In this document: positions 10,669 through 41,808 of the stretch, piece by piece
How the letters are laid out: each line of letters starts with the position of its first letter
Numbering within the stretch: position 1 is the first letter of the stretch
Assembly: GCA_016286035.1 (NCBI GenBank)
Contig: JAEERY010000020.1
Location: 124,001 to 188,000, forward strand
Source: Lachnospiraceae bacterium
GTDB lineage: Bacteria > Bacillota > Clostridia > Lachnospirales > Lachnospiraceae
Reading direction: 5' to 3'
DNA: 64,000 nt
Position numbers and translations under genes: made by a program
Notes under the pieces: generated by a model
The model's input: the letters and a program-made list of their open reading frames with translations, nothing else
Databases searched by the model: none
Told to the model about the DNA's origin: nothing

Positions 10669-10719
10669 GCAGAAGGATAATGCGACAAGTTATTAAGCTT
10701 TGACGGGAGAAAACATAGA

Positions 10720-11813: not shown

Positions 11814-12275
11814 ATGAAAAAACTATGGAATCTATATAAGAAACACAGAGAGGGGATAGAATATCTCTTTTGGGGAGGGATAGCGTTCCTGCTAAGTATG
11901 TTCCTATTTTGGCTTTTTGCCGATAAATGGGGCTGGCCTGCGGTTTTTGCGAATACGATAAACTGGATAATCTGTGTGATATTTACATTCTTTACAAACA
12001 AACTGTTTGTATTTAGGAGTAAGACTAGATCATTTTCAGCATTTGCAAAGGAATTCACGTCTTTTGTGGCAGCCAGGATCTTTACTCTTATTCTTGAGGA
12101 TATAATAATCTGGATAGGTTGTGATGTGATGGGATATGACGAAGGTTTGGGACAGATGGTTGTCAAGCTTGTAGGACAGTTTGTTGTTATTGTGACCAAC
12201 TATATCTTAAGTAAACTGTGGATATTTAAAAAACCTAAGGAAAAAGAAGATGGAAAAGAAAACACAGAAGGATAA
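11814..12275 (+). CDS. GtrA family membrane protein
   Basis: A 153-residue protein with four hydrophobic segments and the GtrA pattern: YLFWGGIAFLLSM, then FTFFTNKLFVFRS, and a C-terminal FVVIVTNYILSKLWIF. GtrA proteins are thought to flip undecaprenyl-phosphate-linked monosaccharides across the membrane for GT-C enzymes. A GGGACAG site precedes the ATG. Its end overlaps the acyltransferase start by 26 bases. The usual GtrB partner is not adjacent but two GtrB-like GT2 genes lie at 22792 and 29891. Family assignment is firm. Confidence 0.88.
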   Translation: MKKLWNLYKKHREGIEYLFWGGIAFLLSMFLFWLFADKWGWPAVFANTINWIICVIFTFFTNKLFVFRSKTRSFSAFAKEFTSFVAARIFTLILEDIIIWIGCDVMGYDEGLGQMVVKLVGQFVVIVTNYILSKLWIFKKPKEKEDGKENTEG

Positions 12276-18933: not shown

Positions 18934-19749
18934 ATGTCAGAGAAAAAAGGTTTAACCAAATTAATTGAGAATATACCGGGGGTACCCGATTTTGAGAAGA
19001 CGGAATACGATCAAAAACAGAAGGAGTACTGTTTACTGATACCGATCATAAATGAAGGAGAGCGTATAAAAAAAGAACTTGAGCGCGCTGTAAGATTCAG
19101 TGTTTATGATCTTGTAGACATCATCATATGTGATGGAGATTCAACAGACGGATGTACTGATGAAGAAACGTTGAAGAGTCTTAAGGTTAATACCCTGCTT
19201 GTAAAAAAAGGTCCCGGAAAACAGGGAGCCCAGTTGCGTATGGGAATGTATTATGCTCTTAACAGGGGGTATAAAGGCATTATCACCATTGATGGAAATA
19301 ATAAAGACAGCATAGAGCATGTTGGAAGATTTATTGAAAAGCTTGAAGAAGGATATGATTTTGTTCAAGGTTCAAGATTTATAGAGGGAGGACATGCTGT
19401 AAGGACACCGCTGATAAGAAATATATCGGTAAGACTTATACATGCTCCCGTCATATCACTTACGGCGCACAAGAGATTTACTGATACGACAAATAATTAC
19501 AGGGCGTATTCGAGAAGATATTTAGAGAATGAAAAGGTTGAGCCGTTCAGAGACATCTTTTCGACTTATGAACTTCTGGCATATCTGTCATCAAGAGCTA
19601 CACAGATCGGACTTAAAGCATGTGAAGTACCGGTAGATCGCGTATATCCGAAATCGGGAAAAACACCGACTAAGATATCTGCTGTAAAAGGTAATGCCAA
19701 CCTCATGGGTATCCTGATCAAAAATGCTGCAGGAAAATACAATCCGTAA
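18934..19749 (+). CDS. Glycosyltransferase family 2 (DPM-like)
   Basis: A 271-residue soluble GT2 enzyme. Residues 32-42 (YCLLIPIINEG) begin the GT-A fold; IICDGDSTDG (65-74) is the nucleotide-binding acidic block; ITIDGNNKD has Asp120 at the metal-binding position, although the usual DxD is DGN here. The QGSRFIEGG block near 145 is typical of polyprenyl-phosphate glycosyltransferases, but no C-terminal membrane segments are present. GGAG precedes the ATG by about 8 bases. It could load a sugar onto undecaprenyl phosphate for the neighbouring membrane enzymes. Confidence 0.78.
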   Translation: MSEKKGLTKLIENIPGVPDFEKTEYDQKQKEYCLLIPIINEGERIKKELERAVRFSVYDLVDIIICDGDSTDGCTDEETLKSLKVNTLLVKKGPGKQGAQLRMGMYYALNRGYKGIITIDGNNKDSIEHVGRFIEKLEEGYDFVQGSRFIEGGHAVRTPLIRNISVRLIHAPVISLTAHKRFTDTTNNYRAYSRRYLENEKVEPFRDIFSTYELLAYLSSRATQIGLKACEVPVDRVYPKSGKTPTKISAVKGNANLMGILIKNAAGKYNP

Positions 19750-19878
19750 GCATTTGTGCAGTAGTCTATGGGTTGCAGGGATATAAAGACCATTTGTGGT
19801 AATTGAAGCTAAAATCTGATAAAATAATAAGATAGATTTTTTAAGACCGGGGTGAATCATCCCGGGATTGGATATGAT

Positions 19879-21009
19879 ATGAAGATCAATTTTAATGTTC
19901 CTCCCTTTACGGGAAAAGAATATGAATATATCAAACAGGCTGTCGATGCACAGAAGATCTGTGGCGACGGTCAGTTTACGCGCAATTGCAATAGCTGGAT
20001 AGAAGAGAATACAGGATGCAGTAAAGCGCTTTTGACAACATCATGTACTCATGCGACGGAACTTGCAGCGCTTTTGGCTGATATCAAACCGGGTGATGAA
20101 GTTATTATGCCTTCGTATACGTTCTGTTCAACCGCAGATGCATTTGTGTTAAGGGGAGCAACGGTAGTATTTGTTGATATCAGACCCGATACAATGAATA
20201 TGGATGAGAATCTTATTGAGGATGCCATCACTGAAAAGACAAGAGCAATAGTTCCTGTACATTATGCGGGTGTGTCGTGTGAGATGGACAAGATCATGGA
20301 AATAGCATCAAAACATGGTCTGTTAGTCATAGAAGATGCCGCGCAGGGAATAATGTCGGCTTATAAAGGAAAGGCTTTAGGGGCCATCGGAGATTTTGGA
20401 TGTTTCAGTTTTCATGAAACGAAAAACTTCTCAATGGGAGAGGGCGGAGCGATCCTTATCAAAGATGACAGTTATATAGAGAAAGCTGAGATCTTCAGAG
20501 AAAAAGGTACAGACAGAAGCAAGTATTATCGCGGACAGGTTGACAAGTACAGATGGCAGGACTTTGGATCGAGTTATCTTCCAAGTGAACTCAATGCAGC
20601 TTATCTGTGGGCTCAACTGGAGATGGCTGATATTATAAATGCTGACAGACTGGACAGCTGGAATCATTACAGAGACAGACTGTCGGTACTTGAATCTGCG
20701 GGAAAGATCGAGTGGCAGTTCATACCTGAATACTGTAAACACAATGCGCATATGTTTTATATCAAGCTTAAGGATGTTGACGAACGTACAAGGTTTATCG
20801 ATCATATGAAAAAGAATGAAATCCTTACGGTATTTCATTATGTACCTCTTCATAGTGCACCTGCAGGCCTTAAGTACTGCAGATTTAACGGAGAGGACAG
20901 ATATACGACCAGGGAAAGTGAAAGACTTGTAAGACTTCCCATGTATTACGGACTCAAGCCTGATGATATTGAATACATTTGTGATAAGGTTGAAGAATTC
21001 TTCAGATAA
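19879..21009 (+). CDS. wecE: dTDP-4-amino-4,6-dideoxygalactose transaminase
   Basis: A 376-residue PLP-dependent sugar aminotransferase of the DegT/DnrJ/EryC1/StrS family, very close along its whole length to enterobacterial WecE/RffA. Matching blocks include CGDGQFTR, PSYTFCSTADAFVLRG, RPDTMNMDE, VPVHYAGVSCEMD and SFHETKNFS, where Lys182 is the PLP-binding lysine. WecE converts dTDP-4-keto-6-deoxyglucose to dTDP-Fuc4N. I prefer the ATG at 19879 (GGATTGGAT upstream), which aligns with the E. coli start, over the GTG at 19852. RmlA, RmlB and the WecD acetyltransferase are not beside it; the GNAT gene at 6049 is a distant candidate for the last role. Confidence 0.92.
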   Translation: MKINFNVPPFTGKEYEYIKQAVDAQKICGDGQFTRNCNSWIEENTGCSKALLTTSCTHATELAALLADIKPGDEVIMPSYTFCSTADAFVLRGATVVFVDIRPDTMNMDENLIEDAITEKTRAIVPVHYAGVSCEMDKIMEIASKHGLLVIEDAAQGIMSAYKGKALGAIGDFGCFSFHETKNFSMGEGGAILIKDDSYIEKAEIFREKGTDRSKYYRGQVDKYRWQDFGSSYLPSELNAAYLWAQLEMADIINADRLDSWNHYRDRLSVLESAGKIEWQFIPEYCKHNAHMFYIKLKDVDERTRFIDHMKKNEILTVFHYVPLHSAPAGLKYCRFNGEDRYTTRESERLVRLPMYYGLKPDDIEYICDKVEEFFR

Positions 21010-21024: not shown

Positions 21025-22791
21025 ATGAGCGTGGACAAGGAAAAAGAATACAGATATTCGATAATTTCATATATATGTGCTACTGTGATCACGACATTGC
21101 TTTATCTGATCGCAGGACATTTTTTCAGGTTCTATTATGACCTGAATGATGACGTGCTAATTAAGGACATCTTATCCGGTGCATACACAGGATCGCCGGA
21201 TGCTCATAACATACAGATGCTTTATCCTCTTGCGTGGATATTTAAGGTACTGTACGGTATCCATCCTAATGTACCGTGGTTTGGTATGCTGGAGATTGGC
21301 ATGATGTGGCTGTGTATCATTTTGCTGTTGGGAAGAACACAGTTTCTTTTGATGTGCAATATAGAACGCAGAGTATGGCGTATTTTAGCCATTATTGGGC
21401 TTTATATCTGTGAGACAGCATACGGAGTCGGAACACAGTTTTGGGAATTTTTCATGATACAGTATACCGTTGTGTGCGGAATGATGGTAACCACGGCGGC
21501 ATTTTTACTGTTTACAGGAAGAAACTTTGATATCTACGAAAATGTTATCCCGATAGTCCTGCTTTTGCTTGCTTTCAACTTAAGAAGCGAGATGTTTCTT
21601 CTGTTCTGCCCGTTTCTTGCTGTTGTGATCATTAGCAGATGGATATCTGAAGGATTTGAGGCTGATACCAATAAGAGAAATATTATATTTATCGCGGTGG
21701 TGGCTTGCGGACTTATCATATCTCTGATAATCAATTCTGCAGCATACAGATCAGACGACTGGAAAGAGTTCAACCGACTGTTTAAAGCAAGGACCACAGT
21801 CTATGATTTTACCGGTATACCGAGTTATGAGGATAATCAAACATTATATGACAGCCTGCATATGGACAAGGATGATCATGACCGGCTTGAAGATTATAAT
21901 TATGTTCTGACATATGCAGCTAACGCATCTTCGATGGAGAAGATAGCTCAGTATGCATCAGAACATAATCTAAAGAAGAAAACTGCAGGTTATGCGGTAT
22001 TTGAAGTATTGCTTGATATGATCAGATGGAAGACCCCGAGTCAAAAAGAGGCACTTACAGATCACGAAAGTGTTTTCCTTGAAGAGGGAGCAAAACTTCA
22101 TATACCAGGAAACATGATCATAATAGTTTTATATATATTGGCTGTAATAGCAGCGATATATGCAAAGGATATAAAGTGGGCATATACATTACCATTCTTT
22201 TTGCTGGTACGTATAGTTGACTGGGGCTATATAAGTTATAAAGACAGGATTAATGCGCGTGTGGCACATCCGTTATATCTCATGGAATGCGCAATGCTTG
22301 TCGGTGTATTGCTGGTCGCATGGGCAGAGAGCAATTATTCCAGTCAGACAGTCAGGAAACGCATATCGGTTTTGCTTGCAGTGGTGTTTGTTATTTCAGG
22401 ACTGATAAATACTCTGTTTATGCCTTCATCCATACATGATGTGAGGGATAAATCGGCATTAAGAGAACAGAAAAATCTGCTGGCTGATGCATTGTATAAT
22501 TATACATCTGAGAATCCCAGAACTTACTATCTGATCGATGTATATTCGACAGTGGATTTTACGGAGCAGATATTTGGTGATGACGAGCATAAAAAAGGAA
22601 ATACGCAGTTAGCAGGGGGGTGGGCAGCTTTAAGCCCTCTTGATACATATAAACAGAGTTATTATCAGGATACCGATGAGTGGATGTTTATAACAGCATT
22701 TGAAAACGAGGATGTAAAAACGGCAGATGAAATAAAGAATGAAAATGAAGATACGCTTTTCTATGTCTACTATGTCAAGGATATAAGGTAA
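21025..22791 (+). CDS. Polytopic membrane protein, GT-C-like
   Basis: A 588-residue protein with about eleven hydrophobic segments and a polar C-terminal tail of about 100 residues. The first loop contains NDDVLIKDIL (residues 41-50), an acidic motif in the position used by GT-C glycosyltransferases, followed by an SPDAHNIQ segment. A soluble-looking insertion lies around residues 240-350. I recognise no named family. Its stop directly abuts the ATG of the GtrB-like GT2 gene (TAAATG), so the pair probably forms a unit in which the GT2 makes the polyprenyl-phosphate sugar and this protein uses it. That pairing is inference. Confidence 0.62.
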   Translation: MSVDKEKEYRYSIISYICATVITTLLYLIAGHFFRFYYDLNDDVLIKDILSGAYTGSPDAHNIQMLYPLAWIFKVLYGIHPNVPWFGMLEIGMMWLCIILLLGRTQFLLMCNIERRVWRILAIIGLYICETAYGVGTQFWEFFMIQYTVVCGMMVTTAAFLLFTGRNFDIYENVIPIVLLLLAFNLRSEMFLLFCPFLAVVIISRWISEGFEADTNKRNIIFIAVVACGLIISLIINSAAYRSDDWKEFNRLFKARTTVYDFTGIPSYEDNQTLYDSLHMDKDDHDRLEDYNYVLTYAANASSMEKIAQYASEHNLKKKTAGYAVFEVLLDMIRWKTPSQKEALTDHESVFLEEGAKLHIPGNMIIIVLYILAVIAAIYAKDIKWAYTLPFFLLVRIVDWGYISYKDRINARVAHPLYLMECAMLVGVLLVAWAESNYSSQTVRKRISVLLAVVFVISGLINTLFMPSSIHDVRDKSALREQKNLLADALYNYTSENPRTYYLIDVYSTVDFTEQIFGDDEHKKGNTQLAGGWAALSPLDTYKQSYYQDTDEWMFITAFENEDVKTADEIKNENEDTLFYVYYVKDIR

Positions 22792-23730
22792 ATGAAAAAG
22801 ATTAGTTTTTGCATACCATGCTATAAAAGTGAACAGACATTACCCAAGGTGGTTGAAGAGATACGGGATACCATGTCAGGACTTTCTGACAGGTATGTTT
22901 ATGAGATCATACTTGTAAATGACGCTTCCCCCGATGCTACTTTTGCAAAGATAGAAGAACTGGTCGATAAATACCCCAATATCACAGGGGTTGATCTGGC
23001 AAAAAACTTTGGACAGCATGCTGCGCTTATGGCAGGGTTTGCTTATGTGAGCGGTGACATACTTGTTTGCCTGGATGACGATGGACAGACACCTCCTAAC
23101 GAAGTAGTCAAACTACTTGACAAGATAGAGGAAGGAGAAGATGTTGTTTATGCCAGATATGATCATAAGAAGCATTCTCTGTTCAGGAATTTTGGAAGCT
23201 TTATAAATGAAAAGATGACGGAATTCATGCTGGGCAAACCCAAGGAGCTTTATGTATCCAGCTACTTCGCTGCGAGAAGATTCATTGTTGATGAGATGTT
23301 AAAGTACGATAAGTCATATCCGTATGTGATAGGACTCGTATTAAGATCAACAAAACGTATCGCAAATGTGTCTATAGATCACAGAGAAAGAGAAGTGGGA
23401 AAATCCGGATATACATTCGGAAAACTGTTGGGATTATGGATGAACGGTTTTACCGCATTCAGTGTAAAACCTCTTAGGATAGCTACATGGTCAGGAGTAT
23501 TCTGTGCAGTACTGGGATTTTTGTATGGAATATATACCATAATCAAAAAGCTGGTTCTGGGAGACGTGGTTGTAGTAGGTTTCTCAGCGCTCATGTCAGC
23601 AGTTATGTTTTTGGGCGGTATGATACTGTTCATGCTTGGAATGCTTGGAGAGTATATAGGCAGGATGTATATGGGCATGAATAATGCACCGCAGTATGTG
23701 ATAAGAGAAGTTGTCAAAAAAGATGAGTGA
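22792..23730 (+). CDS. GtrB-like glycosyltransferase family 2 with C-terminal membrane segments
   Basis: A 312-residue GT2 enzyme of the bactoprenol glycosyltransferase (GtrB/DPM1) type. Seen: SFCIPCYKSE at the start, LVNDASPD near 41, KNFGQHAAL near 71, and LDDDGQTPP (Asp95-97) at the metal-binding position. Two hydrophobic segments at about 230-258 and 265-295 anchor it, and the tail EYIGRMYMG is typical of the family. It transfers a sugar from its nucleotide to undecaprenyl phosphate on the inner face of the membrane. It sits between two GT-C-like genes, one of which overlaps its stop, so it likely feeds them. Confidence 0.88.
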   Translation: MKKISFCIPCYKSEQTLPKVVEEIRDTMSGLSDRYVYEIILVNDASPDATFAKIEELVDKYPNITGVDLAKNFGQHAALMAGFAYVSGDILVCLDDDGQTPPNEVVKLLDKIEEGEDVVYARYDHKKHSLFRNFGSFINEKMTEFMLGKPKELYVSSYFAARRFIVDEMLKYDKSYPYVIGLVLRSTKRIANVSIDHREREVGKSGYTFGKLLGLWMNGFTAFSVKPLRIATWSGVFCAVLGFLYGIYTIIKKLVLGDVVVVGFSALMSAVMFLGGMILFMLGMLGEYIGRMYMGMNNAPQYVIREVVKKDE

Positions 23731-25534
23731 TCAGTCTGATATAACCAAAAAAAAGAATATCAGTGACAATACGTATGCTGTGATGGTTTCATTTGCGGGT
23801 ACGGTGGGAATGACAGACATTATGGCTGTAGTGGGTAATAGTATTACTTACACTAACAGCTTTTTTGCGTTTATTGTGTTTGGATTGAGTGTGTATGTTC
23901 TAAGTCATATCTGTCCATCATTCAGATGTTCCATAAAAAGAAATAAGTTTTTTTCCTATATTTCTTCTATATTGCTTTCATTTGCTCTTCACATGGGAGC
24001 GTCATTGGAGAGCACTGCAAATGTGAATTTTAAAGATATCAGATTTTATCTGTTTTCGGTTTTACTGGCTGTTTATTTTGCACCGATCATATCATGGTTA
24101 TGGAAGGCAGCGTCAGACTGCATAAGCAGGCTTTCAGTAAAAAAAAACGATGAAAAGGCCTTGGATTTCAGACAAATATGGGCTGTGATATTCATATTGT
24201 GGCTGCCGGTTTTCTTTGCGATGTACCCGGGAGCTTTTGTATATGATGCGACGGAAGAGTATATTCAGGTCATATCAAGAAGCTTTAGCATGCATCATCC
24301 TCTTTTTCATGTTCTTATGTTAGGCGGGATAGTACATCTTGCCGAATATCTTGGACTTGGTGCAAACCTGGGTATAGCTGTATACACGATATTGCAGATG
24401 ATTGTTTTTTCGGCTGTTCTTGCATATGCTGTTTTCAGGCTGGCAAAAAAAGGATTGAATAAAAAATTTCAGCTGGCGGTTATACTTTTCTTTGGACTTT
24501 TTCCTGTATTCCCGATGTATGCTGTATGTTCGGCAAAAGATACTCTTTTCACGGCCAGCGTCCTGGTTGTGGTCATGCTTCTTATCGATCATATGGAGGA
24601 TGCCGGAGAATTTTATGCGAAAAAAAGAGTACTGTTTGTGATCGCATCGGTCTTTGTGATGCTGTTTAGGAATAACGGAGTATATGCATATGTCATTGCG
24701 ATACTGGTAATAGCTGTTATTGGTCTGTGCGTACGTTTTGACAGGAAAAACCTTGCCAGACTGATGGTGCTAATGTTGCTGTCGGTTGTACTTTATAAGG
24801 GAACAGATTATTGTTTAAAGCTTGCAACCCATGCTACCGGTGGCGAATATCAGGAGAAGCTGACGGTTCCCATTCAGCAGCTTGCAAGAGTATATAAGTA
24901 TGCACCTGAGACATTTTCTGATGAAGAACGCAAACAGTTATATGAGATATTACCTGAAGATTATCTCATAACATACAATCCGAGGATATCTGATGTATTA
25001 AAGTCAGGCTTTAATAATGAAGCATATGCGAAGGATAAGGAAAAATACAACAGCCTGTGGTTTCATATAGGAATGAGAAAGCCATATATATATCTTAATG
25101 CATGGCTGGTAAACAGTTACGGATACTGGTATCCGGATATGATCATAAATGTATATGGCGGAAATCAGATGTATACTTTTATGTATAAAGACAGTTCCTA
25201 TTTTGGATTTGAAACGGAACCGCCGGGGGAGCGACACAGTTTGTTCCCGTTACTTGAAAGATTCTACAGGAATATATCTTTGGAACTATATCAGCAGAAG
25301 GTACCTGTTATCAGTATGCTTTTTGCACCGGGATTTGTTTTTATACTTTTCGCAGGTCATCTGTTAGGTCTTATGAAGGATAAAAAGTGGATTACTGTGG
25401 CAGCATACAGTCCGGTGTGGCTTTTATGGGCGACTGTACTTTTAGGCCCGACGGTACTGGTAAGATATGTATTGATATTATGGTGCATACTCCCGGTGAT
25501 GTTATGTGACAGGCCGGAAAAGATAAAGGTTTAA
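23723..25534 (+). CDS. DUF6020 family membrane protein, GT-C-like (paralogue 1)
   Basis: About 603 residues with roughly a dozen hydrophobic segments. The block MYPGAFVYDATEEYIQ followed by HHPLFHVLMLGG is the hallmark of DUF6020 proteins and gives a conserved Asp in the first large loop, as in GT-C enzymes; SAKDTLF and MLFRNNGVYAY are further shared blocks. The minus-strand gene at 38787 has the same blocks. The ATG at 23723 overlaps the stop of the GtrB-like gene by 8 bases; TTG at 23711 is unlikely. Role in sugar or polymer transfer across the membrane is inferred. Confidence 0.72.
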   Translation: MSDQSDITKKKNISDNTYAVMVSFAGTVGMTDIMAVVGNSITYTNSFFAFIVFGLSVYVLSHICPSFRCSIKRNKFFSYISSILLSFALHMGASLESTANVNFKDIRFYLFSVLLAVYFAPIISWLWKAASDCISRLSVKKNDEKALDFRQIWAVIFILWLPVFFAMYPGAFVYDATEEYIQVISRSFSMHHPLFHVLMLGGIVHLAEYLGLGANLGIAVYTILQMIVFSAVLAYAVFRLAKKGLNKKFQLAVILFFGLFPVFPMYAVCSAKDTLFTASVLVVVMLLIDHMEDAGEFYAKKRVLFVIASVFVMLFRNNGVYAYVIAILVIAVIGLCVRFDRKNLARLMVLMLLSVVLYKGTDYCLKLATHATGGEYQEKLTVPIQQLARVYKYAPETFSDEERKQLYEILPEDYLITYNPRISDVLKSGFNNEAYAKDKEKYNSLWFHIGMRKPYIYLNAWLVNSYGYWYPDMIINVYGGNQMYTFMYKDSSYFGFETEPPGERHSLFPLLERFYRNISLELYQQKVPVISMLFAPGFVFILFAGHLLGLMKDKKWITVAAYSPVWLLWATVLLGPTVLVRYVLILWCILPVMLCDRPEKIKV

Positions 25535-25538
25535 TTAT

Positions 25539-26693
25539 ATGGGAATCGTTACTACAGACAAAATAATAATAGGAGCAGGTCTTTACGGACTTTATTCGGC
25601 TTTATTCTGCGCGAAGCAGGGCGAGAGTGTTGCGATAATAGAATGTGATCCCAAGCCTTTCATGAGAGCAACGTATATAAATCAGGCAAGAGTGCATATG
25701 GGATATCATTATCCCAGATCCCTGTCAACTGCTGTAAAAAGTGCAGGATATTATGAAAGGTTTCATGAGGATTACGGTTTTTGCATCCATGATTCATTTG
25801 ATCAGATATATGCGACTTCAAAACAGTTTTCCTGGACAAATGCAAATGAGTTTAAGAAGTTTTGTGAAGCTGCCGGTATATTCTGTGAACAGATAGATGA
25901 GGCTGCGTATTTTAACCCGGGATATTGTGATGGTGCATTCAGGACTAAAGAGGATACATATGATGCTCTGATATTGCGTGATCATCTTTTAAAAGAGATA
26001 GGGCACTGCAATAACGTATGGATGAACTGCGGAGCAAAGATAGATTCGATCATTCGCAAACCTGATCATTATGAGATAAAGCTTATAAATGGGGACATAT
26101 ATTCATCGGATTTTGTACTGAATGCAACTTATGCGTCTACAAATCAGATACTGGCAATGATAAAGGATGAAGAAGATGTTGCATTAAAGCCTGATCTGTT
26201 TAAGATCAAGTATGAATTATGCGAGATAATACTCTGTGAGATAAACGACAGATTAAAAGGTATCGGTATAACTGTTATGGATGGACCTTTCTTTTCAATA
26301 ATGCCGTTTGGAAAGACCGGATTGCATTCATTGACAAGCGTCACGTTTACTCCTCATGATACGAGCTATGATGATGTGCCACGTTTTAAATGTCAGGAAA
26401 GATCAGAAGGATACTGTGATATAAACAGGCTGGGAAACTGCAATGAATGCCCGGCAAAACCCGAAAGTGCATGGCCTTATATGTCTTCGCTTGCGAGAAA
26501 GTATATGAAAGACGATTTTGGATTCTCATATAAGGGTTCATTATTCTCTATGAAACCGATTCTTAAGACAACGGAGATAGATGATTCAAGACCGACAGTT
26601 GTGAGCACTTTCTCTAATGAACCGACATTTGTAAGCGTATTGTCAGGAAAGATCAACACCGTATATGATCTGGATGATATTCTTAGAAAATAG
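25539..26693 (+). CDS. FAD-dependent oxidoreductase (DAO type) with a cysteine cluster
   Basis: A 384-residue flavoprotein. IIIGAGLYGLYSAL near residues 10-23 is the dinucleotide-binding loop, with the ribose-binding Glu at the end of VAIIEC; NQARVHMGYHYPRS near 48-61 resembles the active-site-side block of D-amino-acid-oxidase-like enzymes in surface-glycan loci. Near residues 286-310 are four cysteines (CQE...YCD...CNEC), unusual in this family and possibly metal-binding. A GGTTTAATT-type site precedes the ATG. It begins a four-gene set with a GT2, an SDR and a TIM-barrel isomerase, so it probably oxidises a sugar or amino sugar. Substrate unknown. Confidence 0.75.
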   Translation: MGIVTTDKIIIGAGLYGLYSALFCAKQGESVAIIECDPKPFMRATYINQARVHMGYHYPRSLSTAVKSAGYYERFHEDYGFCIHDSFDQIYATSKQFSWTNANEFKKFCEAAGIFCEQIDEAAYFNPGYCDGAFRTKEDTYDALILRDHLLKEIGHCNNVWMNCGAKIDSIIRKPDHYEIKLINGDIYSSDFVLNATYASTNQILAMIKDEEDVALKPDLFKIKYELCEIILCEINDRLKGIGITVMDGPFFSIMPFGKTGLHSLTSVTFTPHDTSYDDVPRFKCQERSEGYCDINRLGNCNECPAKPESAWPYMSSLARKYMKDDFGFSYKGSLFSMKPILKTTEIDDSRPTVVSTFSNEPTFVSVLSGKINTVYDLDDILRK

Positions 26694-26743
26694 TATGAGA
26701 ACGAATTAAATATATCAGATGAATGTGTTCAGAAAGGATTCAT

Positions 26744-27691
26744 ATGAACAGTAACGAAAAACTGGATAAGAATTTTATATCGGCAGTAGTATATATCAAT
26801 ACTGCGGATTCGGCTCAGAGTCTAAAGGATTTCATAGAAAAACTGGATTTATGGCTGAAAGGCAGTTTTGTCAAATATGAAGTCATCTTTGTTGATGATG
26901 ATTCTAAGGATGAATACCAGGAGATCATACGTGATTACAAGAAGGAACATGATGATGTCATGATGACGATCCTACATATGAGCGGTCGTCAGGGCATGGA
27001 AAAGAGCATGAATGCCGGTCGTGATATGGCCATCGGCGATTTTGTTTTTGAGTTTGATGAATGCGTATTTAATTTCAAAGAAGACCAGCTTGAGCTGGTT
27101 TATAAAACATGCCTTAAGGACTATGATATAGTGAACTGTTCGGATGAAAAGAAAAACAGTGCAGGATCAAATCTGTTTTATGTATTGTTCAATAAGTATT
27201 CGGATGTAGATCATAAACTGGAAAGTGATAATTTCAGGATATTATCAAGAAGAGGCATAAACAGAATACAGTCGCTGAATCGTGCAATACCGTACAGAAA
27301 AGCCTTATATGCAAGTTGTGGTCTTAAAATGACAAATCTTACATATAAACCGGAAAGCGACAGTGATTATTCGCATGATAAGAGAGAGAAGAAAGAACGC
27401 AGACAGCTGGCATCGGATGCACTGATCTTATTTACTCAGGTTGGTTATAAGGCAGCTCTTTCACTGTCGGCGCTTATGGCTGTTCTGATGGTGTTCAGTG
27501 CTGTTTATGCGATTATCATGTATATCAACAGGATAGCCATAGAAGGATGGACGACCACCATGTTGTTTTTGAGTTTTGCTTTCTTTGGTCTATTCATGAT
27601 ACTTACGATCATCATAAAGTATCTTTCTTTATTGCTTGAACTGAATTTCAAAAAACAGAGATATATGTTTGAAAATGTGGAGAAATTATGA
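26744..27691 (+). CDS. Glycosyltransferase family 2 with C-terminal membrane segments (atypical)
   Basis: A 315-residue GT2-like enzyme. VIFVDDDSKDE near residue 47 is the acidic nucleotide-binding block and MSGRQGMEKSMNAG is the usual following helix, but the DxD position reads FEFDE, so the metal site is not canonical. Two hydrophobic segments at about 235-262 and 270-295 fit the GtrB-like membrane anchor. The ATG at 26744 has AGAAAGGA 6 bases upstream and is preferred to the earlier in-frame start at 26723. It overlaps the SDR gene by 4 bases (ATGA). Probably makes a polyprenyl-phosphate-linked form of the sugar produced by its neighbours. Confidence 0.7.
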   Translation: MNSNEKLDKNFISAVVYINTADSAQSLKDFIEKLDLWLKGSFVKYEVIFVDDDSKDEYQEIIRDYKKEHDDVMMTILHMSGRQGMEKSMNAGRDMAIGDFVFEFDECVFNFKEDQLELVYKTCLKDYDIVNCSDEKKNSAGSNLFYVLFNKYSDVDHKLESDNFRILSRRGINRIQSLNRAIPYRKALYASCGLKMTNLTYKPESDSDYSHDKREKKERRQLASDALILFTQVGYKAALSLSALMAVLMVFSAVYAIIMYINRIAIEGWTTTMLFLSFAFFGLFMILTIIIKYLSLLLELNFKKQRYMFENVEKL

Positions 27692-28614
27692 ATTACGAAA
27701 CATCTATGCTGGTAGGTTATACCGGATTTGTAGGATATAACCTGGATAGCAGCAATAACTTTACCTACAGGATAAACAGTAAAAATTATAAAGAAGCGGA
27801 AGGTAAAGCTCCGGATCTTTTGATATTTGCGGGGTTAAGAGCTGAGAAATATCTGGCTAATAAAGATCCCCAAAAGGATTTTGAGGAAATAAAGAGAGCA
27901 TTTCAACAGATAAAAGATATAAATGCAAAAAAGGTTGTTCTTATATCGACTGTGGATGTATATAAGAGACCTGTAGACGTTGATGAAAACACAGTTATAG
28001 ATACTGACGGTCTGAATGCTTACGGACTGAACCGTTACAGGCTTGAACAGATGGTCAGGGAAGAGTATCCGGATTCATTGATAGTCAGATTGCCCGGATT
28101 ATTTGGAAAAGGGCTTAAAAAGAACTTTATATATGATTATATCCATGTGATACCGACCATGCTAAAAGCGGAAAAGTATAAAGAGTTGTCAGCTAAAAGC
28201 AGTATCATAGAAAAATCATATGAACTGCTAGATAACGGCTTTTACGGGTGTATTGATAAAGAGAATTCATTTCTAAAAGAAGAGTTTAAAAGGGTTGGTT
28301 TTACTGCTCTCAATTTCACGGATTCAAGGGGAGTGTTTCAGTTTTATTCTTTGAGTCGACTATATGATGATATCAAGACTGCGCTGGATAATGATATCAA
28401 GATATTGAATATTGCGACCGAACCGGTTTCGGTTTCGGAAGTGTACGAGTTTGTTACGGATGGTAAAGAATTCATAAATGAGATAAGTGAAAATCCTCCC
28501 GTATATGATTACAAGTCTGTCCATTGTGATCTGTTTGGCGGACAGAATGGATATTTTTATGATAAGTCTAAAGTCCTTGAACAGATAAAAGAGTTTGTTG
28601 CTTCTCAAGTTTGA
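27688..28614 (+). CDS. NAD-dependent epimerase/dehydratase-like (extended SDR)
   Basis: A 308-residue extended short-chain dehydrogenase. The N-terminal VGYTGFVGYNL is a GxxGFxG NAD(P)-binding motif; LISTVDVYKRP is the strand before the active site; and YGLNRYRLEQ occupies the YxxxK position, with Arg in place of the catalytic Lys. A normal sugar-nucleotide epimerase or dehydratase needs that Lys, so the reaction may differ or the protein may bind without turnover. It is coupled to the GT2 gene by an ATGA overlap and followed 32 bases later by the isomerase. Fold certain, reaction not. Confidence 0.72.
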   Translation: MNYETSMLVGYTGFVGYNLDSSNNFTYRINSKNYKEAEGKAPDLLIFAGLRAEKYLANKDPQKDFEEIKRAFQQIKDINAKKVVLISTVDVYKRPVDVDENTVIDTDGLNAYGLNRYRLEQMVREEYPDSLIVRLPGLFGKGLKKNFIYDYIHVIPTMLKAEKYKELSAKSSIIEKSYELLDNGFYGCIDKENSFLKEEFKRVGFTALNFTDSRGVFQFYSLSRLYDDIKTALDNDIKILNIATEPVSVSEVYEFVTDGKEFINEISENPPVYDYKSVHCDLFGGQNGYFYDKSKVLEQIKEFVASQV

Positions 28615-28646
28615 TTATTACGAATTTATGAAGAAATGGAAAGTAT

Positions 28647-29438
28647 ATGAAGATATCTGCATCTAACATTGGATGGAAAAAAGAATATGATGAACAGATG
28701 TATATCTGGATGCGAAACAACGGCCTGTCGGGACTTGAGATCGCACCTACACGTATATTTACTGAGAAACCATATGACAAGTGCAAGGAAGCAAGGATAT
28801 GGGCTGACAGATTGAAGGATGAATATGGTCTTGAGATTTCCTCCATGCAATCGATATGGTATGGGAGAAATGAGAATATCTTTGTATCAAAAGATGAACG
28901 GGAGTCTTTGATTGAGTATACAAAAAAGGCAATTGATTTTGCTAAGACCATAGATTGCAACAATCTTGTGTTTGGATGCCCGAGAAACAGAAATGTCCCC
29001 GAAGGGGCGGATATTTTAATCGCAGAGGAGTTTTTTTCTATATTGGGTGAATATGCATGCAATGCAGGTACAGTCATCGCTATGGAGGCAAACCCACCAA
29101 TATACAATACAAATTATTGCAACACGACTCGTCAGGCTATAGAACTTGTAAAAAGAGTAGGCAGTCCCGGATTCAGATTAAATCTTGATATAGGAACGAT
29201 GATAGCAAATGATGAATCGATAGATGATCTTGATGGAACTGTCGATATCATAAATCATGTTCATATCAGCGAACCCGGACTTGCTATGATTAAAAATAGA
29301 GCAATGCATAGTGAATTGAAAACTTTGCTTAAAGAATCGGCCTATGATAGATATGTTTCGTTAGAGGTTAAAACACAGGAAGATATACAGGATATCAAAG
29401 AGCCGATCTTGTATATCAAAGAATTGTTTGCTGATTAG
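28647..29438 (+). CDS. Sugar phosphate isomerase/epimerase (TIM barrel, AP_endonuc_2)
   Basis: A 263-residue xylose-isomerase-like TIM barrel. Metal-ligand candidates occur in the expected order: AMEANP (Glu), NLDIGT (Asp), HVHISEPG (His/Glu) and SLEVK (Glu). Such enzymes isomerise or epimerise keto-sugars and inositols. It is the last gene of the four-gene set from 25539 and is followed by a hairpin terminator at about 29450. GGAAAG precedes the ATG. Association with an FAD oxidoreductase and an SDR suggests a multistep rearrangement of one sugar; substrate unknown. Confidence 0.78.
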   Translation: MKISASNIGWKKEYDEQMYIWMRNNGLSGLEIAPTRIFTEKPYDKCKEARIWADRLKDEYGLEISSMQSIWYGRNENIFVSKDERESLIEYTKKAIDFAKTIDCNNLVFGCPRNRNVPEGADILIAEEFFSILGEYACNAGTVIAMEANPPIYNTNYCNTTRQAIELVKRVGSPGFRLNLDIGTMIANDESIDDLDGTVDIINHVHISEPGLAMIKNRAMHSELKTLLKESAYDRYVSLEVKTQEDIQDIKEPILYIKELFAD

Positions 29439-29442
29439 AAAT

Positions 29443-29482
29443 AAAAAATAAGCCAAGCTTGAATAAACAGGCCTGGCTTTTG
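29443..29482. terminator. Bidirectional intrinsic terminator
   Basis: Stem AGCCAAGC at 29451-29458 pairs with GCCTGGCT at 29471-29478, with one G-T wobble, across a 12-base loop. A T run follows on the plus strand and an A-rich AATAAAAAATA precedes it, so it can end transcription from both sides. It sits between the convergent isomerase gene (ends 29438) and the small YIDP gene (ends 29499). Confidence 0.8.
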
Positions 29483-29890: not shown

Positions 29891-30835
29891 TCAGTCGCAT
29901 TCTTTGGTTTCCTCATCCACAATCTCTTCTATAAGGAAGGGCGGTCTGTTACTGCTGGCATCCAGTGCTCTCCATACATATTCGCCCAGCATTCCGAGCA
30001 TCAGCATCATAACTCCGCTGGAGAATAGCAGAACAGTCATAAGAGAAGCCCAGCCGACTGTCCTTACACCTGAAACCACGATCTCTGAGATACACATTAT
30101 TATACCGACAAAAGAAGCAAGGGAAAAGATTATTCCCATTACAGACATAAGGCGTACAGGAAAATATGAGAAACTCATTACAGAATCGACAACAAGCTTG
30201 ATCTTCTTACCCATTGTCCAGCGGCCTTTTCCTTTTTCTCTTGCCTTTCGGCTGAAGTAGATCTTTTCTGATTTAAATCCGACCCAAAGAACCTGAAGCG
30301 TAAGTGCGGAATTCTTTTCATCAAGCATTTTTATGACTTCTATGACTTTTCTGTCCAGTAAATAACAGTCGAATCCGCCTTTTGGCATTTCGGGATTTAC
30401 TATTTTCCGCATGAGTTTGTAATAAAGGCTGGCGAATATTTTATATATTTTGCCGTCATCTCTGTCTTCTCTGACGGCAAGAACGACTTTGTTTCCGTTT
30501 TTCCAGCTTTCATACATGCGGAGTATCAGTTCGGATTCCTCCTGCATATCGGCCTGCTTGGTGACTGCGCAGTCTCCCGTGCATACATTAAGTCCGGCAA
30601 GAATGGCAGAATGTTCACCGAAATTTCTGGAAAGGTGTACACACTTGACATGAGAAGGATCTTTTTTATGTATTTCGTTCATGACCGTCCATGATGAGTC
30701 TTTTGAACCGTCATCTACCATAACGATCTCATAGTCATCGAGTTTATCAAGAACTTTTTCACACAGATCGTCATAAAGATCGGATAAGGTATCTTCGTTG
30801 TAATATACCGGTATTATTATGGAAAGTTTTTTCAT
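29891..30835 (-). CDS. GtrB-like glycosyltransferase family 2
   Basis: A 314-residue bactoprenol-phosphate glycosyltransferase. SIIIPVYYNED opens the GT-A fold, MVDDGSKDSS lies at 39-48, SRNFGEHSAI near 69-78, and QADMQEE at 94-100 is the metal-binding position, where the first Asp of the usual DxD is Gln. SRKAREKGKGRWTMGKK near residue 200 and two C-terminal membrane segments (about 232-258, 268-292) are typical of GtrB. It is in the same direction as, and 16 bases after, the DUF6056-like membrane gene, which is the likely user of its undecaprenyl-phosphate sugar. Confidence 0.85.
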   Translation of the reverse strand: MKKLSIIIPVYYNEDTLSDLYDDLCEKVLDKLDDYEIVMVDDGSKDSSWTVMNEIHKKDPSHVKCVHLSRNFGEHSAILAGLNVCTGDCAVTKQADMQEESELILRMYESWKNGNKVVLAVREDRDDGKIYKIFASLYYKLMRKIVNPEMPKGGFDCYLLDRKVIEVIKMLDEKNSALTLQVLWVGFKSEKIYFSRKAREKGKGRWTMGKKIKLVVDSVMSFSYFPVRLMSVMGIIFSLASFVGIIMCISEIVVSGVRTVGWASLMTVLLFSSGVMMLMLGMLGEYVWRALDASSNRPPFLIEEIVDEETKECD

Positions 30836-36780: not shown

Positions 36781-37822
36781 ATACTGTTATCGATTAAGAA
36801 AAGCTTTAATTGAGTATCATAGATTTATAAAAGATACAAAGGGTAAAAAAAGATGTGTTTTTATGGCAACACCAAGACATAAAAATCTTGGAGATCATGC
36901 CATAGTCAGAGCACAATATAAGTTTTTACGGGATATTGAGCCGGACATCAAGATCTTTGAGTTTAGTCTTCTGGAGTTTGAAACATACAGACGAATCATT
37001 CGAATGATGACACCGAAAGACATTCTTATAGTGGCGGATGGTGGAGGAAATCTCGGAACTCTGTGGCCGAACGAAGATAAAGCGATAAATAATATAATTA
37101 CCGATTATCGATACAATCCTGTGATCATTTTCCCTCAAACAGCATACTATAGTGGGGATAATGCGGATGAACATATAAAGGGATTTGCTGATAATGTGAA
37201 TTCTCACAGATCAATCCTTTTTATGGTCAGGGACACAAAAAGTTATGAACTGTTTAGAGACAGGATAAAAGCGGACAAGATATTATTGTGTCCGGATATT
37301 GTTCTCTATACCAATGATGCAATTGATAGAAGAAAGATCATTGTTGAAAACACTGTTGGATTATGTATAAGAGATGACAAGGAAAGCAATGTCTCGGTAG
37401 AGCAAAAAGGAACTATTCCGACATTACTGGAAAACAAAGGGTTATCATATCGATCTTTGACTACGATCTCTGAAAAGAATATATATCCTGCTGAAAGAGA
37501 AGAAGTGTTGAAAAAAAAGTGGGATGAATTTGCAACCTGCAGACTTATAATTACCGACAGATTACATGGAATGATCTTTTCTGCCATCACAAGTACTCCA
37601 TGTATTGCTTTGGATAATCTGAGCAATAAGGTGTCAGGCGGATATGAATGGATAAAAGCTTTAGATTATATTTCTTTCTGCAAAGAAGCAGATTCATTGA
37701 ATGACATAATCGATGGAAAGCTTAAAGAGCAGGAAAATGATAATGAACACTATGACAGGGATATGGTGGTATCCGATAAATTCGTGAAATGTAAAATGTT
37801 TTTGGAGAGCATTTGGCAATGA
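36770..37822 (+). CDS. Polysaccharide pyruvyl transferase family protein
   Basis: A 350-residue protein of the polysaccharide pyruvyl transferase family, which adds ketal-linked pyruvate to sugars from phosphoenolpyruvate. HKNLGDHAIVRAQ near residue 42 is the family's opening motif, VADGGGNLGTLWP near 92 the second, and ITDRLHGMIFSAI near 260 the conserved histidine block close to the C-terminus. The best start is ATG 36770 with GGAAAG just upstream, inside the end of the dehydratase gene; ATGs at 36743, 36752 and 36758 are alternatives. It is coupled to the GT10 gene by an ATGA overlap. Confidence 0.85.
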   Translation: MDVRYCYRLRKALIEYHRFIKDTKGKKRCVFMATPRHKNLGDHAIVRAQYKFLRDIEPDIKIFEFSLLEFETYRRIIRMMTPKDILIVADGGGNLGTLWPNEDKAINNIITDYRYNPVIIFPQTAYYSGDNADEHIKGFADNVNSHRSILFMVRDTKSYELFRDRIKADKILLCPDIVLYTNDAIDRRKIIVENTVGLCIRDDKESNVSVEQKGTIPTLLENKGLSYRSLTTISEKNIYPAEREEVLKKKWDEFATCRLIITDRLHGMIFSAITSTPCIALDNLSNKVSGGYEWIKALDYISFCKEADSLNDIIDGKLKEQENDNEHYDRDMVVSDKFVKCKMFLESIWQ

Positions 37823-38775
37823 AAACATATTTGATTGGTTTTTGTGATATGGGCAGGGATTTTGATGAGTATGATAACATATTTGTCAATGCATTAAAGA
37901 AAGCAGAAATATCATATGAACTATCCGAAAAACCCGAAGTATTGTTTTATTCGGTTTTTGGAAATCGACACAATTTGTATAGAGATTGCATAAAAGTTTT
38001 TTTTATAGGTGAACCTATTGCTCCGGATTTTAATGAGTGTGACTATGCGATAGGCTTTGATAAAATGGTATTCGGAGACAGGTATTTAAGAAGACCGTTA
38101 TGGTTTCCTGACAGATGTAATATTCCTCAGATGGACATATCTGATGAGGAAGCATTAAATCGAAAATTCTGTAATTTTGTCTATTCAAATGATAAAGACG
38201 GAAATGCTGTTGAATTAAGGACCAAATTCGCCAAGCTTCTTATGGAGTATAAACATGTGGACTGTCCTGGGAGAGTTCTTAATAATATGACATCAGATCT
38301 TCTTGCGCGTGAAGACAGAGACTGGGTAAGAAGCAAAGTAGACTTTTTGAAAGGTTATAAGTTTACGATCTCTTTTGAGAATTCAAAATACAACGGATAT
38401 ACTACCGAAAAGATGCTTAATCCTTTATCTGCCAGATCCATCCCAATCTATTGGGGCAACCCGAAAGTAGAGGAGGACTTCAATCCTGATGCATTTGTTA
38501 ATGCTAACGGATATGAGGACAGACTTGAGGAGATAGTCAAGAAGATAATAGAATTAGACAATGACGACGATGCTTATTTAAGGATGCTTCATGCAAATCC
38601 GATGAAATCAGACTATGATCCCAAAGAGGATAGAGATAAGTTTGATCGATTTATTGTTGATATTGTCACAGGCGATAAAACTCCCTTTGCCAAGGATCCG
38701 CTTAATTTCAGGCGCAGAATGACATTTATGAATATGTCCCGTAAAGAGAAAATCATGTTTTTTTTGAAGAAATGA
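37819..38775 (+). CDS. Glycosyltransferase family 10 (fucosyltransferase-like)
   Basis: A 318-residue GT10 enzyme, the family of alpha-1,3/4-fucosyltransferases that use GDP-fucose. The C-terminal donor-binding domain shows FTISFENSKYNGYTTEKMLNPLSARSIPIYWGNP, split here as FENS, YTTEK and IPIYWG, the family signature, with the conserved Glu and Lys. The N-terminal half has the shorter acceptor domain with FIGEPIAPDFN. GGAGAG precedes the ATG at 37819, which overlaps the pyruvyl transferase stop; the TTG at 37813 is unlikely. No GDP-fucose pathway genes are in the window. Its stop is 11 bases from that of the convergent DUF6020 gene. Confidence 0.87.
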   Translation: MKTYLIGFCDMGRDFDEYDNIFVNALKKAEISYELSEKPEVLFYSVFGNRHNLYRDCIKVFFIGEPIAPDFNECDYAIGFDKMVFGDRYLRRPLWFPDRCNIPQMDISDEEALNRKFCNFVYSNDKDGNAVELRTKFAKLLMEYKHVDCPGRVLNNMTSDLLAREDRDWVRSKVDFLKGYKFTISFENSKYNGYTTEKMLNPLSARSIPIYWGNPKVEEDFNPDAFVNANGYEDRLEEIVKKIIELDNDDDAYLRMLHANPMKSDYDPKEDRDKFDRFIVDIVTGDKTPFAKDPLNFRRRMTFMNMSRKEKIMFFLKK

Positions 38776-38786
38776 TTTAGACGTTC

Positions 38787-40154
38787 TTATTTTTGCGTGA
38801 GCGAGGCAGGTTTTTTGAATAATTGCATTATTGCTACAGGAACTGATAAGAAGAAGAAATATCCGTAGCGGATGATCGCACCGGGCCCAAGCAGCAATGT
38901 GCATAAATATAGCAGAAAGAATAAATAAGCAAACCCTTCCTTGCGATGATGTTTAAGACCGATTAGGCAAGCAATGATATTCAACCAGATATAAAGTCCC
39001 ATATTAAGGAATAATGAATACGGCTTTGAGGGATCGTTAAAATAGAATAACGATATGTATAGATCGCATAATTGAGGGATTTTAGATTCCTGTTCTGCAT
39101 CACCGCGGTAGTCTCGCCTTGCAAGGAAGAATACATTGTATGAATAAGGTTGATGAAAAGGATCAATAAATCCTTGAATATTATACCAGACAGCCTGTGT
39201 GCTTATAACTGGGTGCTTAAGGGCGATTATGGTTGAATCAAGCAGAAAATGCTTGCATTTTGATTCCCAGATTTCAAAAGGAAGGTATTTTTTCATGGGA
39301 TCGGCAAGACAATAATTATATTCATCGGCATTGGGTATATATTCTTCTATAAGAGCTTTTTCCTCATCAGTAGCTACAGTGTTGTATACTCTTCCCATTA
39401 TCTGACCGGGAATGCTCATCATTTCTTTTATTGATCCGGGATAAGCACCGGTAGCAAATACCAGGGATTTATTCACAGTAATAGCTAGAACGGTAACCGC
39501 TATCATATACTTTGCGTATTTAGTGATTGTTTCAACATTATGATTTTTCTTTTTGAGTATTAATATGGTAAGTATAAGCAGCAGTGAAGTTGCTATAATA
39601 GCGTGGACGGCATTGTTTCTGAAAAGTAGCATAAGAACGGCATTTAATATCATGCGAATGAGTCGAATATATTTTTTTTCATTCTTTTGTGATTCCAAAA
39701 GTGTTAAACTGTCAATAAAGAATATCAGTCCAAAACCGGCAAACAGAATATCTTTTGTATGTGAGATTGCTAACAGTGAATTGACTGGAAAAACAGCATA
39801 GAATACTACTGCGATGTAGATTGGGATATGGTTTTTTAATCGTTTATGTAAATAACTGACAGCATAAGTCATTGCACCATCTATAACAAACAGTTGAATT
39901 ATGGTAGCACATGCATATCCGAGATTATAATTGAAATTATATTTGGCATTACCAAACAGATTATGAAAGAAACCGATAAAAAGCGTATGCAGTAACGGGT
40001 GATTTGTATAGAATGCGTGCTCATTGTACTGAGTGATCTGAACATTGAGATCATAAGCGCAAATTCCCGGATAAAATGCCAAGAATACGATAAAATGACA
40101 TATGAATATAATGCAGAACACTATTATGGTTGACAGGATCTCTTTCTTCTTCAT
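38787..40154 (-). CDS. DUF6020 family membrane protein, GT-C-like (paralogue 2)
   Basis: A 455-residue polytopic protein related to the one at 23723. Shared blocks: FYPGICAYDLNVQITQ then NHPLLHTLFIG, SHTKDILFAG, MLLFRNNAVHA, and a mid-protein IPGQIMGRVYN. It is about 150 residues shorter, lacking part of the N-terminal membrane region. The start ATG at 40154 lacks a ribosome binding site and sits 6 bases after a TATAAT on its own strand. It is a lone minus-strand gene between two plus-strand blocks. Probable lipid-linked sugar transferase or related; not demonstrated for the family. Confidence 0.7.
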   Translation of the reverse strand: MKKKEILSTIIVFCIIFICHFIVFLAFYPGICAYDLNVQITQYNEHAFYTNHPLLHTLFIGFFHNLFGNAKYNFNYNLGYACATIIQLFVIDGAMTYAVSYLHKRLKNHIPIYIAVVFYAVFPVNSLLAISHTKDILFAGFGLIFFIDSLTLLESQKNEKKYIRLIRMILNAVLMLLFRNNAVHAIIATSLLLILTILILKKKNHNVETITKYAKYMIAVTVLAITVNKSLVFATGAYPGSIKEMMSIPGQIMGRVYNTVATDEEKALIEEYIPNADEYNYCLADPMKKYLPFEIWESKCKHFLLDSTIIALKHPVISTQAVWYNIQGFIDPFHQPYSYNVFFLARRDYRGDAEQESKIPQLCDLYISLFYFNDPSKPYSLFLNMGLYIWLNIIACLIGLKHHRKEGFAYLFFLLYLCTLLLGPGAIIRYGYFFFLSVPVAIMQLFKKPASLTQK

Positions 40155-40160
40155 GATGTC

Positions 40161-40189
40161 ATTATAATGTTTTGTTTGAGAAAATTAAA
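40161..40189 (-). promoter_or_regulatory. Possible promoter of the DUF6020 gene
   Basis: On the minus strand TTTAAT (40189-40184), 17 bases, then TATAAT (40166-40161). The -35 is weak. The palindromic ATTATAAT also offers a TATAAT at 40163-40168 on the plus strand, so divergent start points for the PglC-like gene at 40192 are possible. If the minus-strand use is right, the DUF6020 message would start at or beside its ATG. Confidence 0.35.
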
Positions 40190-40191
40190 GT

Positions 40192-40857: not shown

Positions 40858-40858
40858 T

Positions 40859-41806: not shown

Positions 41807-41808
41807 AG

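Follow-up and report, generated by a model that had tools for sequence, protein, structure and literature searches.

The window analyzed here, 64,000 nucleotides of a Lachnospiraceae bacterium (GenBank assembly GCA_016286035.1, contig JAEERY010000020.1, positions 124,001 to 188,000 of the forward strand), belongs to a 3.0-Mb draft genome in 95 contigs and contains five genes that form a set conserved across bacteria of the gut and of the environment, whose probable role is the synthesis of an unusual lipid-carried sugar that is exported to the cell surface. The products are a flavin adenine dinucleotide (FAD)-dependent oxidoreductase, two family 2 glycosyltransferases (GT2) designated GT2e and X4, a short-chain dehydrogenase/reductase (SDR) and a TIM-barrel isomerase. 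As a whole, the set is read as a surface glycosylation system of the three-component type with sugar-tailoring enzymes of its own, at a probability of roughly 0.55. This reading is based on gene content, linkage, fusions, partner swaps, motif states and predicted folds, from which the reactions, the sugar, the lipid and the order of steps are inferred. No description of the five-gene block was found in the open-licence literature searched, nor any described pathway matching the set, which agrees with the remark in an earlier note on this DNA, made for the FAD oxidoreductase, the isomerase and the SDR, that it knew of no such nucleotide-sugar pathway. The five genes are as follows (window positions; transmembrane (TM) helices here and below were counted by a custom hydropathy measure and not by a trained predictor):

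18934..19749, + strand: X4, soluble GT2 resembling DPMS and AglJ, 271 aa, no TM helix, fifth member of the cassette (co-occurrence, Pfam GT2)
25539..26693, + strand: FAD-dependent oxidoreductase, DAO fold, 384 aa, putative sugar-alcohol oxidase (Pfam DAO, Foldseek)
26744..27691, + strand: GT2e, resembling GtrB and sll0501, two C-terminal TM helices, no DxD, putative membrane platform (PDB, Pfam, motif columns)
27688..28614, + strand: SDR with invariant Tyr-xxx-Arg, putative keto-sugar reductase (RmlD-like fold, motif columns)
28647..29438, + strand: TIM-barrel isomerase/epimerase, AP_endonuc_2 (Pfam 2e-17, metal-ligand columns)

Co-occurrence of the five genes

With the window SDR alone as the query, 80 loci were retrieved (the best 80 of 97 relatives) and all of their open reading frames (ORFs) were clustered. 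Five families were recovered in 78, 75, 72, 70 and 70 of the 80 loci and the next family in 20, counts that depend on the linkage thresholds chosen. When members were counted in stop-to-stop frames with a hidden Markov model (HMM) for each protein, trained on sequences from the 80 loci themselves, the TIM barrel was present in 78 loci, the FAD oxidoreductase in 73, GT2e in 72 or 73 depending on the threshold, and X4 in 71. All five members were present in 65 of the 80 loci, a count that stands under a stricter GT2e threshold, so that the conserved co-occurrence envisaged in the earlier note holds for its four genes together with X4, and the compact unit of four that it described is part of a set of five. 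In 64 of the 65 complete loci the five genes are on a single strand, and they span 4.2-11.4 kb (median 5.4 kb). Eight of the 15 incomplete loci (L023, L024, L025, L028, L053, L063, L066, L099) reach a contig edge near the missing gene. Most of the 80 loci are labelled as Lachnospiraceae or other Clostridia; one comes from Erysipelotrichaceae and one from a Treponemataceae metagenome-assembled genome (the bins of such genomes can be wrong).

Pairwise divergence was correlated for all ten pairs of the five proteins across the 65 complete loci (r 0.65-0.89, 0 of 1000 permutations for each pair), the highest value being that of the FAD oxidoreductase and GT2e (r 0.89); the correlation is explained by shared descent as a block and is not in itself proof of interaction. 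Among 295 genomes of the same order (its own included, E 1e-20), the FAD oxidoreductase was found in 21, X4 in 13, the SDR in 14 and all three in 12. In a survey of 195 relatives that also counted the genome itself, the SDR was matched in 19 at E 1e-3, with strong matches in 14.

Chance clustering was rejected, since complete loci number 65 of 80 and the next family reaches 20 of 80. The same comparison bears on the possibility that the five genes belong to separate pathways that merely share a glycan gene cluster, which would be in line with the window being a long cluster of this kind with many other sugar genes and with the swapping of partners described below; given also the compact blocks on unrelated plasmids, the gene fusions and the correlated divergence, to which shared ancestry contributes, this explanation is very improbable.

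In L043, L047 and some of the loci L080-L101, a run of six further families (c8, c9, c10, c12, c13, c14), present in 10 to 13 loci each, follows X4; judged by eye, they include a sugar transferase and a protein of the WecG/TagA type.

Plasmid-borne relatives

Twelve plasmid records contain a relative of the FAD oxidoreductase (28-33% identity), and at least 10 of these also hold X4 (46-52%, from the 20 listed of 42 plasmid records that match X4). Eight of the 12 were opened, and in seven of the eight the SDR, TIM barrel, FAD oxidoreductase and X4 are in a single block, accompanied by GtrA in five of the seven and by SMR in one. Sagittula, Ruegeria, Cereibacter, Roseobacter and Sphingomonas share one gene order: SDR, TIM barrel, a protein of 331-350 aa with two or three TM stretches, FAD oxidoreductase, GtrA and X4. 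In Sagittula, Roseobacter and Sphingomonas, X4 is followed by the gene for a 527-563-aa protein in which 8-12 hydrophobic stretches were counted, and in Cereibacter the corresponding protein is fused to X4. Psychrobacter plasmid pA22P4 (10.8 kb) has SDR, TIM barrel, SMR, FAD oxidoreductase, a GT2e-X4 fusion and a membrane protein of 479 aa, and this block adjoins replication and mobilization genes. In Azospirillum, the SDR, TIM barrel, X4, FAD oxidoreductase and GT2e are present, and neither GtrA nor SMR was matched within the 19-kb stretch. The counterpart of GT2e in L104, L105, L107, L108 and L109 was assigned by its place, length and TM helices, its HMM score being weak (L105) or below threshold.

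The eighth record, Mesorhizobium p_3 (L110), has the FAD oxidoreductase, SDR and TIM barrel among transposases and is perhaps a decaying or split block; X4 was not found in the 13-kb stretch opened, on which the X4 absence for two Mesorhizobium records rests. Scans of viral contigs with the FAD oxidoreductase and X4 gave no relatives, such single-protein scans reaching close relatives only; an X4 relative (64%) is present on one short scaffold, which is labelled as phage but unverified.

The FAD oxidoreductase and its partners

Alignment columns here and in the following sections comprise 70 FAD oxidoreductases, 71 GT2e, 79 SDR, 76 TIM-barrel and 71 X4 sequences, window included, after members far from the window length had been dropped. 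The FAD oxidoreductase matches Pfam DAO (4e-11), G12, G14 and G17 are invariant in 34 sequences, and its AlphaFold model (pLDDT 89.6, pTM 0.89) has the DAO fold. Among the 50 Foldseek matches listed, the highest TM-score was that of GlpD (2r45, 0.74); others included D-arginine dehydrogenase (6p9d, 0.68) and L-2-hydroxyglutarate dehydrogenase (8w78, 0.66). GlpD, a glycerol-3-phosphate dehydrogenase, oxidizes a secondary alcohol. The enzyme might instead work like UDP-galactopyranose mutase, as a redox-neutral mutase or epimerase without net oxidation; its profile does touch that mutase (1i8t, 5e-4), in the nucleotide-binding stretch only, and hosts of the window clade are mostly anaerobes, for which oxygen is no ready electron acceptor. 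This is nevertheless improbable, as the best folds are those of DAO-family oxidases and dehydrogenases and the exchange of partners for an aminotransferase fits a free ketone. Residues 285-304 (window 26391-26450) contain a four-cysteine motif, C-x7-C-x7-C-x2-C, in 30 of 30 window-type and 0 of 4 plasmid-borne sequences, which is a possible metal or iron-sulfur site.

The FAD oxidoreductase and GT2e genes are at most 300 bp apart on a single strand in 92 of 93 FAD loci (the exception is L051), which do not amount to 93 independent cases because some genomes are in both collections (e.g., L031/L127, L098/L129). Three fusions, each a single case, link the components: GT2e with X4 in L106 (Psychrobacter), with no stop across 592 aa and only the X4 part annotated in the record; X4 with a PMT_2 domain (1.3e-6) in L107; and the SDR with a 14-TM region in L125.

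The partners of the FAD oxidoreductase vary. The order survey gave 21 genomes with the FAD oxidoreductase, and 12 of them resemble the window in having X4, SDR and TIM barrel (the SDR of G227 being on a separate contig). Six of the 21 have the FAD oxidoreductase, GT2e, a soluble GT2 of approximately 240 aa and a DegT aminotransferase in fixed order; one has an aldo-keto reductase (5e-62) with the TIM barrel; and two have the SDR with a low-scoring GT2e and, in the one that was scanned, a protein that is weakly GT8-like, below the Pfam cut-off. The soluble GT2 keeps a DIDL motif in all six loci and has no TM helix, and the DegT protein (Pfam 3e-117, run on one of them) is nearest to nucleotide-sugar aminotransferase models, below their cut-offs; the HMMs of DegT and soluble GT2 were built from six and four, respectively, of the six loci that they describe. 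Replacement of a reductase by an aminotransferase is what a keto-sugar intermediate predicts, and the simplest common intermediate is a ketone open either to transamination or to reduction by two alternative types of reductase. In L114, a GNAT acetyltransferase follows.

The glycosyltransferases GT2e and X4

GT2e is related to sll0501 (PDB, 1.7e-12) over most of its length, matches Pfam Glycos_transf_2 (7e-11) and has two C-terminal TM helices. The first Asp of its DxD motif is kept in 71 of 71 sequences, and at the third position Asp is absent from the six commonest residues, which cover 68 of the 71. Where the sequences of GtrB-like relatives read DAD-LQ or DDD-GQ, GT2e has FD and then varies. 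Ten divergent members all have no D-x-D, nine of them having lost D112, and retain the C-terminal TM helices. The function of a plain polyprenyl transferase was rejected for GT2e on account of the lost DxD, and the protein looks like a membrane platform, of GtrB fold and without DxD. The earlier note had included this membrane-anchored protein in a possible route to a lipid-linked sugar; it is probably not the active polyprenyl transferase, and the better candidate for that activity is X4.

X4 matches Pfam GT2 (1e-7), the AglJ model (7e-13, far below its cut-off) and DPMS (5mlz, 7e-6), and the window copy is 68-74% identical to its 20 best relatives. The motif DGNxKDSIE, within which D120-G-N122-x-K124-D-S is invariant in 71 of 71 sequences, stands at the position of the DPMS motif DADLQDPPE; DADLQD was also seen in GtrB-like relatives.

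The SDR and the TIM barrel

The SDR matches Pfam RmlD only at 3e-4, below the cut-off, RmlD and Epimerase being the only families listed. Its AlphaFold model (pLDDT 95.6) is nearest to RmlD and sugar epimerases (TM-score approximately 0.6), and RmlD is also among the PDB sequence matches. In the motif Y112-G-L-N-R116, Tyr and Arg are present in 79 of 79 sequences and in 36 of 36 of a set that includes four plasmid-borne relatives, and in the latter set G10, G13 and G16 (GxxGxxG), S87 and Y112 are all intact. The lysine of the YxxxK motif was found in none of these sequences, its place being taken by Arg throughout; YxxxR, which the earlier note had pointed out in the window copy, is a fixed trait of the family. 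A short form of the SDR in L103, L106, L117 and L118 has approximately 55 residues fewer (HMM positions ~150-205) than the long form.

The TIM barrel matches AP_endonuc_2 (2e-17), D-tagatose 3-epimerases in the PDB (0.004) and the IolO model (3e-7, below its cut-off). E147, D181, H206 and E240, presumably the metal ligands as in the rest of the family, are invariant in 76 of 76 sequences.

Proposed route

In the proposed route, X4, docked at the membrane by GT2e, would transfer a common sugar from its nucleotide donor onto polyprenyl phosphate; the FAD oxidoreductase, which travels with GT2e, would introduce a ketone into the lipid-linked sugar by oxidizing one of its ring hydroxyls; the TIM barrel would epimerize the carbon beside the ketone by metal-dependent enolization; the SDR would reduce the ketone to yield a new epimer; a GtrA or SMR protein would flip the donor; and a GT-C enzyme would add the sugar to a glycan outside the cell. 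Tailoring of a common activated sugar fits the lack of any kinase or nucleotidyltransferase among the five conserved families. That the set makes a lipid-linked sugar with tailoring by its own enzymes at one level or another is likely; the route in its details, in which GT2e is an inactive platform, is tentative, at somewhat less than even odds; and placing the tailoring at the lipid level is the least supported inference. The lipid-linked sugar suggested in the earlier note gains from the finding that relatives sit with a flippase and, in one fusion, with a PMT_2-type domain, the lipid linkage itself being deduced from gene content and fusions.

The FAD oxidoreductase, TIM barrel and SDR might instead convert a cytoplasmic nucleoside diphosphate sugar, with X4 and GT2e as two active polyprenyl transferases that use the product. 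Tailoring of a nucleotide sugar would suit the SDR, whose fold comes closest to dTDP-4-dehydrorhamnose reductases; the DegT protein of swapped loci, whose nearest models are those of nucleotide-sugar aminotransferases (again below cut-offs); and the lack of a predicted TM helix in the FAD oxidoreductase, SDR and TIM barrel of the window. This alternative is rather unlikely, however: in 92 of 93 loci the FAD oxidoreductase is accompanied by GT2e, a membrane protein from which the DxD motif is missing, and one SDR forms a fusion with a 14-TM region.

Several observations weigh against a surface glycosylation system with tailoring on the lipid. The data do not decisively separate lipid-level from nucleotide-level tailoring. 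The contig continues in seven of the 15 incomplete loci, which have no X4 (L084, L089, L092, L095, L102), no GT2e (L051) or neither FAD oxidoreductase nor GT2e (L054), the contig of L092 being also cut on one side; and one of the 295 genomes surveyed (G304) has X4 but neither FAD oxidoreductase nor SDR. In five plasmid loci the counterpart of GT2e was recognized from its location; in L117 and L118 its score (80-90 bits) is no higher than that of an ordinary GtrB-like protein encoded in the window (87 bits). The X4 motif also differs from that of DPMS, with DGN and with K in place of Q, and possibly X4 is not an ordinary polyprenyl transferase either. Flippases, for which the search covered GtrA and SMR, are not constant neighbors: SMR is present in 21 and GtrA in 5 of the 80 loci (26 in all, anywhere in the locus), in 14 of the 80 loci a candidate is no more than 2.5 kb from a cassette gene, and the only candidate found in the window, a GtrA-like protein at 11814, is far from the cassette. 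As for the GT-C enzyme, a protein of at least 400 aa with at least seven hydrophobic stretches is near the cassette in 54 of 80 loci, and of eight large multi-TM proteins scanned, seven had no Pfam match and one a weak irrelevant match; beyond L107, GT-C assignments rest on TM counts. The gene after X4 in Ruegeria is annotated as exosortase XrtD.

In G304, X4 (L120) has 48% identity and two SMR genes approximately 6 kb away, with no match to the FAD oxidoreductase, GT2e, SDR or TIM barrel within the 19-kb stretch.

A broader proposal, more tentative still than the detailed route, is that a flavoprotein docked on a pseudo-glycosyltransferase oxidizes polyprenyl-phosphate sugars, and that interchangeable partners (TIM barrel with SDR, TIM barrel with aldo-keto reductase, or aminotransferase) would then turn the shared keto intermediate into different rare sugars, in a cross-phylum, plasmid-borne and hitherto undescribed system.

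Surroundings of the cassette in the window

Other features of the locus that may relate to the cassette are the following:

11814..12275, + strand: GtrA-like putative flippase, lying 6.7 kb upstream of X4 and not proven to belong to the cassette (Pfam GtrA_DPMS_TM 5e-21)
21025..22791, + strand: 9-TM protein, GT-C candidate (TM count)
23711..25534, + strand: 11-TM DUF6020 protein, GT-C candidate, ending 4 nt before the FAD oxidoreductase (Pfam DUF6020 2e-38)
29450..29479, + strand: terminator-like hairpin at the 3' end of the unit (fold z -3.5)

All four genes described in the earlier note are confirmed as tightly packed ORFs. The GT2e ORF was first listed as 26723-27691, and its better start is the ATG at 26744, behind AGAAAGGA; the coupling to the SDR gene consists of an ATGA overlap. 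The terminator predicted at the 3' end corresponds to the hairpin at 29450-29479 (0 of 200 shuffles equally stable), which is also one of 12 sites found by a terminator consensus scan of 12.5 kb, where shuffles give 5.6. The 5' end is not closed: the preceding gene ends 4 nt before the FAD oxidoreductase gene, and a packed run on the same strand (gaps of at most 102 nt) extends back to 11814, the first gene measured, so an isolated operon of four genes is ruled out. Promoter-like sites (51, with 46.4 expected) were uninformative. X4 is 5.8 kb upstream of the FAD oxidoreductase gene. Nor is the route self-contained, as had been suggested, since in the window the flippase candidate and the GT-C candidates lie upstream of the four genes.

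The 9-TM protein has no Pfam family above cut-off and no relative in the 80 loci at E 1e-4 (tblastn). Relatives of the DUF6020 protein, by the same method, are 67-70% identical and in the equivalent place in L023 and L024, and weak (22-28%) in L037, L042 and L086.

Directly 3' of X4 (19852-21009) is a WecE-type dTDP-sugar aminotransferase (TIGR02379, 633 bits, above cut-off), only 29% identical to the DegT of a partner-swapped locus; judging by the name of the model, it more likely belongs to a sugar of the dTDP-Fuc4N type. A second GtrB-like GT2 (29891-30835, - strand) reads KQADMQ in the DxD region, with the first Asp replaced. Elsewhere in the window are a GT52/polysialyltransferase-like protein and a NeuB-family synthase (9595-11772), possibly indicating a nonulosonic acid in the same cluster, and a FucT-like GT10, a bacterial sugar transferase, a PALP enzyme and a PylC-like ATP-grasp protein (37813-42792).

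Comparison with known systems

Mycobacterial DprE1, which uses FAD, is of the FAD_binding_4 domain type, and DprE2 is an SDR of the adh_short type. The two oxidize and then reduce decaprenyl-phospho-ribose, for which SMR-type export and use by GT-C enzymes have been proposed (PMC11127046). The cassette would be analogous in its proposed oxidation and reduction of a polyprenyl-phosphate sugar, but its FAD oxidoreductase has the DAO fold, with FAD_binding_4 not listed by Pfam at E up to 1, and its SDR is RmlD-like, with adh_short not among the listed Pfam matches (only RmlD and Epimerase). It also adds a putative TIM-barrel epimerase and a putative DPMS-like loader, and there is no phosphoribose synthase among the five conserved families. 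Membership in the DprE1/DprE2 system was rejected because of the differing domain types.

In the pentofuranose system of Citrobacter youngae, the loader is a phosphoribose synthase and the epimerase, ORF13, is a single SDR with YxxxK (PMC11127046). Three-component glycosylation (GtrA, GtrB and GT-C) as in C. youngae would resemble the cassette, as read here, in having a loader, a flippase, a GT-C enzyme and an auxiliary epimerase that sets the identity of the sugar, whereas the putative loader of the cassette is DPMS-like and tailoring is assigned to an FAD oxidoreductase, a TIM barrel and an SDR with YxxxR. Despite the proposed functional analogy, the cassette is not a member of either system, because the protein families differ.

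Among individual proteins, GT2e shares the GT2 domain and C-terminal TM helices of GtrB and sll0501 synthases, with DxD missing in GT2e and altered in X4. The TIM barrel shares with D-tagatose 3-epimerase and IolO the AP_endonuc_2 family and the E, D, H, E ligands, but is of low similarity to them and sits in a glycan block. To our knowledge, epimerization of a sugar on its lipid carrier has few known cases, namely DprE1/DprE2 and ORF13 of C. youngae. A 2024 paper states, in its passage on O-antigen side-chain glycosylation systems, that its authors were unaware of further epimerases in them (PMC11127046). If the reading proposed here is correct, the cassette would be a further kind of on-carrier sugar epimerization, located in gut Lachnospiraceae and on plasmids of Pseudomonadota; its modular logic, in which one oxidation feeds several products, would predict new surface sugars; and a protein of the GtrB fold would have a non-catalytic role.

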